Shown: piece after piece, positions 4,127-17,437 of the stretch
Layout: each line of letters opens with the position of its first letter
How positions within the stretch are numbered: position 1 is the stretch's first letter
Assembly (NCBI GenBank): GCA_946560065.1
Contig: CAMNUE010000002.1
Span: 142,950 to 206,949, forward strand
Source of the DNA: an uncultured bacterium
GTDB taxonomy: Bacteria; Bacillota_I; Bacilli_A; RF39; UBA660
Reading direction: 5' to 3'
Length of the DNA stretch: 64,000 nt
Position numbers and translations under genes: made by a program
Notes under the pieces: generated by a model
The model's database searches: none
Told to the model about the DNA's origin: nothing
What the model saw: the letters and a program-made list of their open reading frames with translations, nothing else

Positions 4127-5044
4127 CTAAAATAAATTCTTTTCAATATTTTTATATAAAATTTTTTCAATTTCTTCATCATTATAATTTTCTTTTAATA
4201 AATTAATTAAATCATTTTTAACACTCTTATAATTAAATACTTCTCTATCTGCAATTTCTCCATATAAGGCAGTTGCAAATGTCATATCATCAGTAGATAC
4301 TCCAACACAATCAATTCCAAGTAACTCAACAACATGATTTATGTGTTTTAAATACTCACCTTTTATATCAACAACATCTTCACTACCTACAAATACTGAA
4401 TAGGAAACAAGACCAATAACTGGATTAAATTCCTTCAAAGCAAGTATTTGTTCATCATTAAGATTTCTCTCATGACTATATAAATCATAACAATTAGAAT
4501 GACTTGCAATTACTTTAACATCTTTTCCTAAAGCCTTCTGTTCTCTAAGTAACTCGACTGTATCAAAAAAAGTTTTTTTATTCATATGCGACATATCAAT
4601 AGAAATACCTAAATCAATAGCTTTAACAAGAAATTCTCGTCCAAGTTCAGTTAAACCATAATCTCCTCTATTACCCGAACCATATCTATTAGGATTATTC
4701 CAAACAAGTAGTATATTTCTAAGCCCTAATTTATATAGTTCCTCTAACTCCTTAGTATCTTTAATGTAGTCACACCCTTCAATACTAAATAACACTTTAG
4801 TATTAGGTAAATATTTTTTAAACAACTCAGTCGAAGCTTTAAACATATCTAAAACATTAATTTCTTTGTAATTCTCTCCCAGTTCCTCTTTCATTTCTTC
4901 AGCATTCATAAAATAAAGATTTGCTAATAATCCCGAGACATTATCACTATTATAATTTTTTATCCATTCTTCCAAATAACTATAATCATTTCGCAAATAA
5001 CACTGATAAATAACTGACAGCATATCATAATGCATATCTATCAT
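4127..5044 (-). CDS. Membrane dipeptidase (M19, renal dipeptidase-like)
   Basis: MIDMHYD, FSIEGCD, GSGNRGDYGLTELG, SHSNCYD motifs. Confidence 0.85.
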   Translation of the reverse strand: MIDMHYDMLSVIYQCYLRNDYSYLEEWIKNYNSDNVSGLLANLYFMNAEEMKEELGENYKEINVLDMFKASTELFKKYLPNTKVLFSIEGCDYIKDTKELEELYKLGLRNILLVWNNPNRYGSGNRGDYGLTELGREFLVKAIDLGISIDMSHMNKKTFFDTVELLREQKALGKDVKVIASHSNCYDLYSHERNLNDEQILALKEFNPVIGLVSYSVFVGSEDVVDIKGEYLKHINHVVELLGIDCVGVSTDDMTFATALYGEIADREVFNYKSVKNDLINLLKENYNDEEIEKILYKNIEKNLF

Positions 5045-5045
5045 A

Positions 5046-5891
5046 CTATCCCTCCTTTATAAATTCTTTTACTATTGATTCAATATCATCAATATCATCA
5101 TAATAAACGATATCTGAAACATTACAACAGCCCTTTACTAATCCTGATATTTTACTACCAGTCTTAGCAATAGCCAAAATTGGTATTCCAAGATTAACAG
5201 CTTCTTGAAGTTCCATACCCTGTCCAGTTGAAGCAGTACTCATCTCCGCAATAATAAACTTAGCATCTTTAAGTAAATTCATTGCTCTTTCATATCTTTC
5301 TATATCATTCCCCTTAAACTTCATCGTATCAAGTGGACTAGAAATAATAAACTTATTAGTATCAATATATGATTCTAATTTCTGATAAGTTTCAATACTT
5401 TCCTCACTAGAAGCAAGTACAGCTCCAGTAATTAATACTCTATTCTTATCTTTATCAACATGCTTTTTTAATACTTCAATTGCTTCTTCACGATGTAATC
5501 CTTTAATTACCTCAATCTTATTATATCCATATTCAAATAATTTATCTGTATCAATTAATATTTCAGGATTATAGTTTGTATCACTATCTCTTAAAGTAGC
5601 TGCATAAACAATCCTCGATATTCCTTCATAAAGAATTGCCCCTATACACATCATACAAGGTTCACATGATGTATAAATAGTCGAACCTTTCAACTCACCA
5701 TACAAATTCATATCCTTTGAAGCACTCTCTATCGCTGCAAGCTCTGCATGAGGGAACATACTTTTCCCAATCAAAGTTTCATCATCACTTCTACCAAGTA
5801 TTTTTCCATCTTTAACAATAATTGCTCCATAAGGAAATTTAGCATGTCTAGAAATATCTATTGCTATATCAATATATTCTTCATCTTGCAT
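5046..5891 (-). CDS. Bifunctional protein: N-terminal cytidine/guanine-type deaminase, C-terminal nucleoside 2-deoxyribosyltransferase-like domain
   Basis: Zinc deaminase motifs HAELAAI and CEPCMMC; C-terminal VLITGAVLASS...ISSPLD...AKFIIAEMSTASTGQGMELQEAVNLGIPILAIA. Confidence 0.8.
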   Translation of the reverse strand: MQDEEYIDIAIDISRHAKFPYGAIIVKDGKILGRSDDETLIGKSMFPHAELAAIESASKDMNLYGELKGSTIYTSCEPCMMCIGAILYEGISRIVYAATLRDSDTNYNPEILIDTDKLFEYGYNKIEVIKGLHREEAIEVLKKHVDKDKNRVLITGAVLASSEESIETYQKLESYIDTNKFIISSPLDTMKFKGNDIERYERAMNLLKDAKFIIAEMSTASTGQGMELQEAVNLGIPILAIAKTGSKISGLVKGCCNVSDIVYYDDIDDIESIVKEFIKEG

Positions 5892-5907
5892 CTAATCCCT
5901 CCTATAA

Positions 5908-6110
5908 CAAAAAAAGAACAGCAACCTAAGGAGTGCCAAAAGCACGGTGCCATCCTTTTTTTTAACTTAATTAGATAACGGTATCAACCGGATAAATATC
6001 ATCTATAGAGTAGATAAATAAGCATTTAATAATCGTTTTCACCAACCACGATTTCTCTAAAATTAAATAATCTTATTATTAGTTCTAATAATCGATTTGT
6101 TACTATTATA
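5908..6110 (-). promoter_or_regulatory. T-box leader (probably serine-responsive) upstream of deaminase-dipeptidase-serS
   Basis: Minus strand contains AAGGATGGCACCGTGC (T-box consensus), an apical GGTTGGTGAAAACG Stem I loop, and a terminator option AAAAGGATGGCACC...GGTTGCTGTTCTTTTTTT. Confidence 0.88.
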
Positions 6111-10350: not shown

Positions 10351-12708
10351 TTAACTAATTAATACATTTCGCGTACTAAACCTACTCCAATTATTTATAA
10401 CAAATTGTTGAGCCTTTTCATCTTTAACATATACTTTTGCTGTTGAAGGCATTTGTCTAAACATATCTATAGTATTTTCTATATTAGAAAAATCCCATGA
10501 ATCTAATCTAAGTTCAGTATCATAACACCAAGTAGCTGCACTATCAAAAATACCTTCCATATTTTTAACATTTGATATATTCCAATTTGATAAATCCAAA
10601 CTAAGCTTATCAGCATTTGCACCTACTCCATTAAATGTATTCTCCATATTAGTAACATTTGATACATCCCAATTAGAAATATTACCTATATCAAAAACAT
10701 CAGCATAAAATCCTGCTCCAGAAAACATTGATTGCATATTATTAACTTTTGATACATCCCACTTTGATAAATCTAAAATAAATTTATCCGCATAAAAACC
10801 AGCTGAATTAAACATACAATAAGTTATTGTATTATTAGAAACATTCCAATTTTCAAGACTACCAACAGTCCAAGTTTTAGAATTGTACCCAGTTCCAGAA
10901 AACATATGAGTCATATATATAACATTCGATACATCCCAATTACTAACATAAGAAATATCAAAATTAGTTGCATTTTCTCCTGCATAACAAAATGTAGCTT
11001 TCATATCAAGAACATTACTAGTATCCCAGTTAACCAAATTACCAATACTCCAATTTTTCTCTTTTGGACCAGCATAATTAAACATATACTGCATATCTGT
11101 AGCTTTCGAAACATTCCAATTATCAAGTTTACCAATATTCCAGTTATTTGCAGAATAACCTGTTAAAGCAAATGTATAAGAAAAGTTTTCTACGTTACTT
11201 GTATTCCAGTTAGATAAATCACCAACATTCCAAACTGGGGAAACATAACCACTACAATTGAACATTCCTCTCATATTTTTAACTTTTGCTGTATTCCATT
11301 TACTAACATCTATATTAAAACTTAAAGCATTATATGCTGTACTCATAAATAAATATTTCATATCAAGAACATTACTTGTATCCCAATCAGAAACACCATT
11401 CAACTGCCACTGTTTACTTTCATATCCTGTTTCCATAAAAGTTCCAACCATAGAAGTAACATTACTAGTATTTAAATCTGACACATTATATAGTAATTCA
11501 TCCGCATTATAACCAGCTTTATAAAAAGCATAATTCATATTAGTAGATAATAAAGTATTCAAATTTTTAGCATCAAATGAATTAATTCTTTCCATGATAT
11601 TACTTCCATTATCATAACTACAACTAGCACCTCCATCAGCTCCATAGATACAATGATAACTTGCAAATAAACTACTCATATCAAATGGAGCTAAAACACC
11701 TCCATCTTGTCCTATAATAAGAAGAAGATTATTATCAACTCCAACATATTCACCTAAAATAACATTTTCATTTTGATGATCAGAAACATCATAAGATGCC
11801 TTTAATCTATACTCTACACCATTATGATTAACAGTGGTATCCATCTTCTTTTTATAGGCAAACTTTAAAGCAACTTTCGAATTAGAATAATTATCACCTG
11901 AAATTAATTTATTCCAATCAATACAATACCCAGTTTGATTATCATAATAAGAATCACTATTACAACTTCTAGCTAATCTTGCCTTAGAAATCTTTATTTT
12001 AGAATCAACCCTTATTTCAGCTATTTCAAGAGCATAACTTAAACTAAATAAAGTAATCATAACTGCTCCAATAAACAATCCTAAAAAAACAAAATTGATA
12101 TGCTGCATTTCTTTAATTCCATTAATATTTAATCTATTATTCTTATGCAAATACACTAGAACAATAATTATAATCAATATCTCAATACCAAGAATAAAAA
12201 TAAATATATTCAAATTAGAATTAGTCTCAGGATTACTAGTTATAGGTAATGCCTTATTATTCTCATCAACAATTTTAATAACTAAATCACTATTTTCTAC
12301 ATAAACGCCATCTTCATATTTAGAATCATCAACTTCCTTTTTATAAGAAACTCTAACCTCAAAATCCTTGGTACTATTAGCCTTAATTATACTCTCATCA
12401 TCTTCCCAAATATAATCATAAATTACATAACCATCAGTAGTAAATGCTCCCTTATTTTCGATAAAAATATCTTCGTTACCATTATTTTGAACTGTAACTC
12501 TATAACCAATAACATCATTAATCTTTTTAAAAGTTAAATCAAATTTAACATTCATTCCTTCAAAACTAGGTTTATTAATCTCTTCTACAAAACCATCTTT
12601 TTCTACCAAATCAATAGATTTAATTGAAATATCTGATACTTTCGCTTCAACATTAATATAAGTAAAAAACACACCTATAATAGCAATTAAAAATAAAAAC
12701 TTCTTCAT
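10351..12708 (-). CDS. BspA-like / DUF285 repeat surface protein
   Basis: Signal peptide, internal TM segments, then many W(D/N)(T/V)S(N/K)VxxMxxxF repeats. Confidence 0.88.
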   Translation of the reverse strand: MKKFLFLIAIIGVFFTYINVEAKVSDISIKSIDLVEKDGFVEEINKPSFEGMNVKFDLTFKKINDVIGYRVTVQNNGNEDIFIENKGAFTTDGYVIYDYIWEDDESIIKANSTKDFEVRVSYKKEVDDSKYEDGVYVENSDLVIKIVDENNKALPITSNPETNSNLNIFIFILGIEILIIIIVLVYLHKNNRLNINGIKEMQHINFVFLGLFIGAVMITLFSLSYALEIAEIRVDSKIKISKARLARSCNSDSYYDNQTGYCIDWNKLISGDNYSNSKVALKFAYKKKMDTTVNHNGVEYRLKASYDVSDHQNENVILGEYVGVDNNLLLIIGQDGGVLAPFDMSSLFASYHCIYGADGGASCSYDNGSNIMERINSFDAKNLNTLLSTNMNYAFYKAGYNADELLYNVSDLNTSNVTSMVGTFMETGYESKQWQLNGVSDWDTSNVLDMKYLFMSTAYNALSFNIDVSKWNTAKVKNMRGMFNCSGYVSPVWNVGDLSNWNTSNVENFSYTFALTGYSANNWNIGKLDNWNVSKATDMQYMFNYAGPKEKNWSIGNLVNWDTSNVLDMKATFCYAGENATNFDISYVSNWDVSNVIYMTHMFSGTGYNSKTWTVGSLENWNVSNNTITYCMFNSAGFYADKFILDLSKWDVSKVNNMQSMFSGAGFYADVFDIGNISNWDVSNVTNMENTFNGVGANADKLSLDLSNWNISNVKNMEGIFDSAATWCYDTELRLDSWDFSNIENTIDMFRQMPSTAKVYVKDEKAQQFVINNWSRFSTRNVLIS

Positions 12709-14977: not shown

Positions 14978-15550
14978 TTAATCATATTTATTTTTAAAAA
15001 ACTTATATAAGTGATAAAAACCAGTAAATACTAACCATAATACTAAGATAAAATTACTTATTTGTACTAAAGATAAAATAACTTCATTTTGATAAAGTCT
15101 ACTAACATCAACTAAATCAACAGAATCATATGCAGCAAGTGCTATAAAAGACATAAAAAAGAAATAAAGTACACTAAAGAACAAATAATTAATTATTTTC
15201 TTAAACTGTGTCATTTTCTTACTAAATAACGTATAAAGAATTAGTACAGTAACAAATATTATTATAAAGAAATAAACAATCGTAGATGGAAAATAAACAT
15301 AATTCATAATTGCTTTAACAAAAGAATCTACACAAGTTTTAACATAAGTACTATAACTTATTAAAATTCCTATTACAAAACCTATATACACACCTATCGC
15401 AATCATTTGAACTAAATGATTATTTCTTTTAAGATTTACAATTAAAATCAAAAACAAAAGAAGGCTTAATATGAACATTTCTATCGATAGAAAAGATGAA
15501 AATATATATTTAAATATCATTTCAAATTTTCCTATTAAAGATAAATCCAT
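14978..15550 (-). CDS. Hypothetical multi-pass membrane protein downstream of sortase
   Basis: 190 aa with about five hydrophobic segments; co-directional with sortase. Confidence 0.65.
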   Translation of the reverse strand: MDLSLIGKFEMIFKYIFSSFLSIEMFILSLLLFLILIVNLKRNNHLVQMIAIGVYIGFVIGILISYSTYVKTCVDSFVKAIMNYVYFPSTIVYFFIIIFVTVLILYTLFSKKMTQFKKIINYLFFSVLYFFFMSFIALAAYDSVDLVDVSRLYQNEVILSLVQISNFILVLWLVFTGFYHLYKFFKNKYD

Positions 15551-15564
15551 ATTATCACCTTCTT

Positions 15565-16215
15565 CTAGCCTACTAATTCAGAAATATAAACAGTTTGTGT
15601 AGAATCATTATCCTTAGTACATGTAATCATCGTTAACGAAGTCCTATCATAATTTCTTTGTATTCTAACTAATCCAGTCTTAGGAACTTCATAAATATTA
15701 ACAATATGATATTTATATTTATAACCATTATAAGTAACATAGGCATAGTCACCTACATTTAATCTGTATAAATACGCAAAGTATGAGATATATGCATCAC
15801 CAGAATGAGCCATTAATATTAAATTACCATTAACAACATCTGGTAAGCTAGACCCTTCAACCATCGTTACATTGTACTGAATATTATTATATCTTGAACC
15901 AATATTATAAAAACCCCTCTTTAAACCTATCTTAGGTATTTCTAAAACTCCCAAATATTTACTATAATCTATAACATAATTTTCCTTACCCTTAGAATCA
16001 TCACTTACATTATCAGCTACTGGTGTATCAGATATGTAATTATTAGTAACTTTAGTATCATCTCCTGATGTATCCATCATCGCAATCTTCATATCCGAAT
16101 ATACTTCATCCTTCATTTTAAGTAAATAATTCCAAGATAAAGATACAATTCCTATAAAAATAAGTAAAGAGCCAATTAGCAATGAATGGCTCTTTTTAAA
16201 TTTATTGTCTTGCAT
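15565..16215 (-). CDS. Sortase
   Basis: LEIPKIGLKRGFYN, LMAHSGD (catalytic His), LTMITCT (catalytic Cys), RNYDRTSLTM; ATG at 16215 overlaps the adhesin stop. Confidence 0.88.
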   Translation of the reverse strand: MQDNKFKKSHSLLIGSLLIFIGIVSLSWNYLLKMKDEVYSDMKIAMMDTSGDDTKVTNNYISDTPVADNVSDDSKGKENYVIDYSKYLGVLEIPKIGLKRGFYNIGSRYNNIQYNVTMVEGSSLPDVVNGNLILMAHSGDAYISYFAYLYRLNVGDYAYVTYNGYKYKYHIVNIYEVPKTGLVRIQRNYDRTSLTMITCTKDNDSTQTVYISELVG

Positions 16216-17377
16216 CAACTGGTTTAGCATTTGCATAAACAATACCTACACCACACAACAATACTATTAAACCAATAAAGTAAATTGTTTGAGCAGTATT
16301 CATTCCAGTATCAGGAGCACCTACTATTTCTATTGAAAGTCCACCAGAAACATCCATAGTATCTCCAGTAACTGTAACCACTTTTTGTAAATTACCACTT
16401 TCAGCATGATATTCATGCCCTGTTAATGTTTTAAAATGACCAGTTACTCCTACTTGTAAATTTTGAACTTTATCAGTAACTTTGTCACTTGGAATTCTAA
16501 CATAGAATTTCTTACCAGGAGCAACATTAGTTAAAGCTAACTCAGCTCCATTTTCATCTACCGCAATTGCTCCCTCAATTCCTGATAAACTAATATCATA
16601 ACTAATTAAATCGCTTGATGGATCTCCAACAACAGTAATTAATGTAGTTTGATAGAATTTTCCATCATCTGTCTTAAAAATCTCACCATCAGCTTTAGTA
16701 ACAGATATTTGTTTAAAATTAGAAGCAGCCATTGCTCTATTAACCAATGGTTCTATATAATTGTCATAAATACTCTCTCCAAAGTCACAATCAACGTTCT
16801 CTTCACCAACCTCAGTTAAAACGCTTGTTTTAGTTGCTGCTTTAATCGCAGCCATCTCTTCATTACTAATAGCATTCAAACTATTTTCTGGTTTTGTTTT
16901 ATATAAATAAACCCAAATTGCAACTTGAGTAGCCCAAGCCTCAGAATACTTATTTGTATCAGGATCTGCTATAATATTCTTATTATTTACAAAACTATTA
17001 TTTAACAAATATAGTAGTCCATAATCAGTAATTTGATTTTTTTTACTATAAGCAACATTATCATTTACTTCAGCTTTATGTTCTATACAAAACACTGGCT
17101 TTGTAAAAGCTGAATCAGCATAATACAAAGGAACCGAAAAAGTTTGTCCATCAGTATCATTCTTACCAATAACACTAAGCAGACGACCACCAGAATTTTT
17201 TCCTTGATAAAAAGTTATATTGTCATCTAAAACTGGCGCTGCATAACTAACTCTATCAAATCCCGCAGCTATCAATGAAAATACTGCAAAAAAAGCAACT
17301 GCGAAAGATAAAACAATAGAAAAATCTACAACACTTTTTCTTTTTCTCTTATTTTCTTCCATATAAATCTTTTCCAT
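16202..17377 (-). CDS. Sortase-anchored thioester-domain surface protein
   Basis: Signal peptide, FCIEH ... ATQVAIWVY thioester-domain signature, C-terminal APDTG + TM + charged tail. Confidence 0.82.
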   Translation of the reverse strand: MEKIYMEENKRKRKSVVDFSIVLSFAVAFFAVFSLIAAGFDRVSYAAPVLDDNITFYQGKNSGGRLLSVIGKNDTDGQTFSVPLYYADSAFTKPVFCIEHKAEVNDNVAYSKKNQITDYGLLYLLNNSFVNNKNIIADPDTNKYSEAWATQVAIWVYLYKTKPENSLNAISNEEMAAIKAATKTSVLTEVGEENVDCDFGESIYDNYIEPLVNRAMAASNFKQISVTKADGEIFKTDDGKFYQTTLITVVGDPSSDLISYDISLSGIEGAIAVDENGAELALTNVAPGKKFYVRIPSDKVTDKVQNLQVGVTGHFKTLTGHEYHAESGNLQKVVTVTGDTMDVSGGLSIEIVGAPDTGMNTAQTIYFIGLIVLLCGVGIVYANAKPVDARQ

Positions 17378-17437
17378 AAATTCACCCTACCTTATAAAAA
17401 TATTATACCATAATTTGTATAAAATCAAACACATTTT

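Follow-up and report, generated by a model that had tools for sequence, protein, structure and literature searches.

Sortases are taught as His-Cys-Arg enzymes that act alone. Thioester domain (TED) adhesins, dedicated sortases and sorting signals other than LPXTG are already known. In TEDs a (Y/F/L)C motif provides the thioester Cys, and the Gln that is its partner belongs to the C-terminal motif PhiQ(polar)PhiPhi. The TQxxPhiW helix motif also contains a Gln, but this one is non-essential; class II TEDs are frequently without an obvious Gln motif (Walden et al. 2015, PMC4450167). The class II adhesin TIEpLS20 of plasmid pLS20 has no sortase and no sorting signal (PMC8092201). All sortases are said to share His-Cys-Arg, and an Arg mutant was found to be inactive (PMC13257024).

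The locus described here lies in a 64,000 nt stretch of DNA (the window, here meaning the whole stretch that was analysed) from a 1.98 Mb draft genome in 25 contigs (96% complete, 6% contamination), whose nearest named relatives are uncultured gut Bacilli, recorded as Erysipelotrichaceae, Bacillales or Tenericutes, and Candidatus Faecimonas. Contamination is an unlikely source, as the locus recurs, with its gene order unchanged, in a congeneric genome that is 1% contaminated (L032). A first-pass annotation had placed an adhesin, a sortase and a membrane protein on the minus strand, and the positions and strand of all three reading frames were confirmed. The features, all on the minus strand, are:

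17378..17437, minus: gap between the stop of the deoA-like gene and the TED adhesin start, from direct reading of the sequence
16202..17377, minus: class II TED adhesin of 391 aa, from Pfam, AlphaFold2 and Foldseek
17087..17089, minus: codon of Cys97, the predicted thioester Cys (FCIEH), from the homologue alignment
16385..16387, minus: codon of Gln331, the predicted thioester Gln (NLQKVV), from motif and conservation
16304-16318, minus: sorting motif APDTG, from the family consensus
15565..16215, minus: sortase of 216 aa, from PF04203
15805..15807, minus: codon of the catalytic His (AHSGD), a His in 162/162 clade members
15619..15621, minus: codon of the catalytic Cys (MITC), a Cys in 162/162 clade members
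15595..15597, minus: codon of the Gln at the catalytic-Arg position (STQTVYI), from the clade alignment
14978..15550, minus: predicted five-TM membrane protein of 190 aa with no family match, from the AlphaFold2 model and adjacency

The gene order on this strand is deoA-like gene, TED adhesin, sortase, membrane protein, followed by a convergent VanY-like gene and a D-Ala-D-Ala carboxypeptidase gene (DacA); we assigned the names deoA-like and VanY-like by reading the sequences ourselves. Most relatives with this locus (type A) have it in the same chromosomal surroundings, so type A is an inherited chromosomal locus and not a mobile one. The gap upstream of the adhesin gene contains an extended -10 element, TGGTATAAT, at 17402-17410 and a ribosome-binding-like stretch, GGTAGGGTG. 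This -10 is absent from the listing of a consensus scan that demands spacers of 16-18 nt, and the gap is suggestive of a likely promoter belonging to the adhesin gene set itself. The 14 nt overlap of adhesin and sortase genes given in the first-pass annotation is exact if the sortase starts at the ATG at 16215 (reverse strand: ATGCAAGACAATAA), but alternative in-frame ATGs are present at 16236 and 16230, and the true overlap is perhaps 29 or 35 nt. Elsewhere in the window (10351-12708) a DUF285/PARCEL-repeat surface protein carries two hydrophobic segments midway along its length, much as a fusion of two genes would.

The adhesin is composed of a signal peptide (about residues 1-46), the TED, a beta hairpin and the sorting signal. 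It scored 30.1 bits against PF08341 (cut-off 22), a family that was also matched by 56 of its 68 homologues (E up to 0.01). When the AlphaFold2 model (pLDDT 89.4, built from 68 sequences) was compared to known structures by Foldseek, the best matches were EfmTIE86 (6fwy, E 3e-12) and BaTIE (6fwv, E 5e-12); matches to these solved class II TEDs spanned E 3e-12 to 1e-11, whereas the class I TED 5a0l reached only E 0.05. The model thus bears out the TED fold that had been proposed from motifs. The thioester Gln had been sought in ATQVAIW, and this assignment has to be corrected, since that residue belongs to the TQxxPhiW helix motif, whose Gln is non-essential, while the thioester Gln lies elsewhere (PMC4450167). 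Most likely Gln331 is the partner of Cys97: the surrounding NLQKVV fits PhiQ(polar)PhiPhi, Gln331 is conserved in 67/68 homologues, and both residues are retained jointly in 66/68.

The N-terminus of the adhesin, MEKIYMEE (window 17354-17377), is highly conserved across the 68 homologues, which is unusual for the n-region of a signal peptide. Tandem TED adhesin genes precede the sortase in four loci (L135, L175, L192 and L196; L045 is the same locus), and in L196 the copy adjoining the sortase (4803-5978) has lost the Cys, the Gln and the PxTG motif.

After APDTG the chain continues as a hydrophobic helix and ends in a weakly basic tail. Against the LPXTG anchor model TIGR01167 the adhesin scored 11.8 bits (cut-off 15.9): the layout is present, with APDTG as its motif and a tail that is only weakly basic. 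The non-canonical motif noticed in the first-pass annotation is real, but it is not a one-off APDTG; the family-wide consensus across the loci compared is (V/A/S)P(D/N)T(G/A/S/N).

The second gene encodes a sortase whose only TM helix is at the N-terminus and which scored 55.6 bits against PF04203 (cut-off 26.6). It reached none of the NCBIfam class cut-offs: the best score was for class C (64.9 bits, cut-off 160), followed by SrtD (41.5/140), class D (29.9/165), class E (25.9/160), class F (12.4/166) and GN (11.8/158); its matches included no model for class A or class B. This sortase belongs to a distinct clade that has Gln in place of the catalytic Arg, a feature that had gone unseen in the first-pass annotation. 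Among 162 distinct clade members, 129 of them linked to the membrane gene and 33 unlinked, 160 have Gln in this column and two have His; the three class C-type sortases of the host genome, used as controls, all have Arg there (3/3). MAFFT, hhalign and phmmer agree on the assignment of the column to the Arg of class C- and D-type sortases, the phmmer check being an alignment of related Gln-type sortases to the solved chains 2kw8 and 4d70. Since the His and Cys never vary and the Gln hardly does, the active site is under selection. Another conserved Arg (codon 15655-15657) occurs in 124/129 linked members but is absent from the three class C-type controls; as a speculation, it might take over part of the role of the catalytic Arg, e.g., binding of the Asp of PDT. 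The possibility that the missing Arg comes from the membrane protein was also considered and was rejected because related sortases without the membrane protein have Gln as well.

A plasmid search with the window sortase and with a mobile-element sortase retrieved no close relative of either; all matches were below 60% identity, and most of those listed had an annotation as a sortase of class A, C or D. Two class B-type sortases of the host genome (L113:7375-8109 and L115:7479-8318) apparently have Lys at the expected catalytic-Arg position (EKLVMHAKL and EKLVLHAKL), and the one in L113 passes the class B cut-off. Across this 2 Mb draft, the sortase family was matched above the Pfam cut-off thirteen times and the TED family six times.

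For the product of the third gene, the AlphaFold2 model (pLDDT 87.4, pTM 0.58) predicts an N-terminal lateral helix followed by five TM helices, plus a second lateral helix. The earlier estimate of about five TM segments agrees with these five helices and two lateral or amphipathic ones. No Pfam, NCBIfam, PHROGs or PADLOC family was matched above cut-off, and the fold had no match in the PDB (best E 5.5) or among viral structures (best E 4.1). Positive charge is found on loops 1 and 3 and at the C-terminus, so an N-out/C-in topology is likely. Strongly conserved residues are S18, S19, E24, Y69, Y84-S89, Y153, N155, Q163 and N166; if the predicted topology is right, we would place most of them near the outer face of the membrane. 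Lys8, in the outer N-terminal helix, is nearly invariant. A long C-terminal tail is absent from the window's protein and from 94 more of the 130 homologues. Of the 35 long tails, 24 have a motif in common, of the form (L/F)(T/S)xxDYKxxxxLL / LTxDDYKLLLxLL (e.g., L052:6159-7508 and L060:2838-4058), perhaps a cytoplasmic docking site.

The membrane protein occurs in 99 of 289 sampled genomes of the bacterial family, about a third, and nowhere credible outside the family in 397 genomes of the class, where the two matches were fragments with E about 9e-4. Its co-conservation with the TED-sortase pair, the lack of which was to refute the first-pass annotation, is very strong, so the annotation stands on this point. 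The membrane gene lies directly downstream of the sortase in 80/80 of the closest sortase loci in named genomes, and a TED-type gene lies directly upstream in 79/80, the remaining locus being at a contig edge. An arrangement kept in 80/80 named relatives is far beyond chance. When the search was started from the membrane protein, a sortase adjoined it in 60/61 loci. Of the 72 membrane genes in a set of 147 genomes from the family, 69 are adjacent to a sortase; in the same set the membrane gene stands beside 68/69 sortases scoring above 213 bits versus 1/27 of the next-best ones below, a line that was drawn after the data were seen. Because of this post hoc line, the sortase tree is the fairer statement of the pairing. 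One branch of it (support 99/97, 64 rows) contains all 60 membrane-linked sortases, and only four of its rows are unpaired. In L278 a contig end cuts the sortase, and a membrane gene truncated in the same way is present in that genome (L297); for L296 the membrane gene is elsewhere in the same genome (L071); L285 and L293 are possibly genuine exceptions. L285 has a 191-aa membrane protein in a similar place, but this looks unrelated, fails the profile and was excluded from the counts.

The membrane-linked branch divides into two old types that often coexist in a genome. Type A is the one seen in the window; in type B the adhesins have SpaA stalks and the membrane proteins have long tails. The host genome itself has a second set, an old duplicate with the order kept, in which the adhesin combines a TED and a SpaA stalk with a VPDTA signal and the membrane protein is long-tailed. 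A short reading of this adhesin gene as SpaA-only was wrong, since an upstream start reveals the TED. Two further TED-sortase pairs of the host genome (L107, contig C1:205000-220000; L109, contig C20:1-14000) have Gln-type sortases and no five-TM protein; ParB-like, SSB and VirB6-like genes surround them, as in conjugative elements. Such mobile-element-like pairs recur across the bacterial family (L276-L306). As they do without the membrane protein, it is dispensable for this chemistry generally.

Taken together, we favour the view, with a probability of roughly 0.6, that the trio is a self-contained adhesin-display module with an accessory membrane protein. According to established biology, the adhesin would be secreted by Sec and held in the membrane by its C-terminal helix. 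The sortase Cys would then cut xPDTx between Thr and Gly (or Ala, Ser or Asn), working via His-Cys-Gln, in which the neutral Gln would make the hydrogen bonds normally made by Arg, and an amine of the wall (or another amine) would receive the cleaved adhesin. In its displayed state the adhesin could bind amines on host or neighbouring-cell surfaces covalently through the Cys97-Gln331 thioester. Most likely the five-TM protein has an accessory role in anchoring, either keeping the sortase close to its substrate and the acceptor or positioning the machinery in the membrane, and the long-tailed paralogues may add a cytoplasmic docking motif. At matched catalytic identity, the sortase TM helix and the substrate helix showed no extra conservation in membrane-linked versus unlinked pairs, and the alignments therefore give no sign of intramembrane contact. 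For the same reason no support was found for a reading of the sorting-signal helix by the membrane protein, an idea that came from the high conservation of this helix. More tentatively, and in our view rather doubtfully, the Gln-type enzymes may form a sortase class of their own, mechanistically distinct through its His-Cys-Gln active site, and within it one branch would act as an obligate complex with the five-TM subunit, specialised for the display of thioester adhesins.

Other roles of the membrane protein have to be weighed against an accessory one. It might sense or report the status of adhesin or sortase, signalling to the cytoplasm via its C-terminus, with no part in anchoring. The motif shared by 24/35 long tails is predicted to be cytoplasmic, and invariant residues lie on both membrane faces, which favours this reading; yet the window's protein and the 94 other homologues lack the long tail, and no regulator was seen among the conserved neighbour genes examined, so we regard signalling as unlikely. 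The protein could also be the acceptor itself, with the sortase joining the adhesin to its outward amine (e.g., the N-terminus or Lys8) to give a membrane-held adhesin. The predicted N-out topology and the nearly invariant Lys8 would suit this speculative idea, which we take to be highly improbable: Lys8 is not universal across the wider family, and wall-metabolism genes adjoin the locus, so wall acceptors should be available. That the membrane gene is a mere neighbour through chromosomal order would explain the conserved synteny of type A (deoA-like gene upstream, VanY-like gene and DacA downstream), but type B lies at another site with the same sortase-membrane gene pair, and weaker sortase relatives are without the membrane gene. 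With the pairing holding at two loci, this explanation is nearly refuted.

Dead enzymes seldom retain their nucleophile, and His and Cys are kept in all 162 members across the family, with its two old paralogous loci and mobile-element branch. This speaks against a Gln-type sortase that is dead or a mere carrier, with another sortase of the host genome anchoring the adhesin. We consider this distinctly unlikely, even though there are a dozen other sortase matches in the genome and Arg was reported to be indispensable in other sortases (PMC13257024). The earlier proposal that the sortase is dedicated to this adhesin is supported.

Neither Arg-less sortases nor this membrane protein were found described in the open-access literature, which is weak evidence as most subscription journals lay outside the scope of the search. 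Within that literature, the Gln-type active site and the tightly linked five-TM partner appear undescribed. A family-wide Gln-for-Arg clade offers a direct test of the purpose of Arg, and as a dedicated partner of a sortase, a membrane protein almost confined to the side of this one would be a rarity. The module is distributed across mostly uncultured gut Bacilli and suggests a possible covalent hold on host or neighbour surfaces; the sortase is a possible new ligation enzyme for xPDTG-type tags.

The adhesin resembles the class II TED adhesins BaTIE, EfmTIE86, SaTIE and TIEpLS20 in fold, the Cys of the (Y/F/L)C motif, the C-terminal Gln and the signal peptide, and, like BaTIE, has a C-terminal sorting signal. 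It differs from them by its short length of 391 aa, the lack of a SpaA/CnaB stalk, its own adjacent sortase and the PDTG motif. The streptococcal AbpA-SrtB locus likewise pairs a single adhesin with its own sortase and has a sorting signal of a new type, but there the sortase is of class B, and the abstract of that report mentions no membrane partner (PMC4974636). From sortase-assembled pili the locus is set apart by having usually one adhesin gene and a sortase below the class C cut-off. The TED-sortase pairs on conjugative elements of the same bacterial family are part of the same wider Gln-type family, with an adjacent TED and VP(N/D/S)T signals, but have no five-TM protein, mostly longer adhesins, and SSB- and ParB-like genes nearby. 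The sortase itself is like those of classes C and D, its nearest classes by NCBIfam score, in profile and in its His and Cys, and is distinguished from them by reaching no class cut-off, by Gln in place of Arg and by a TM helix at the N-terminus only.
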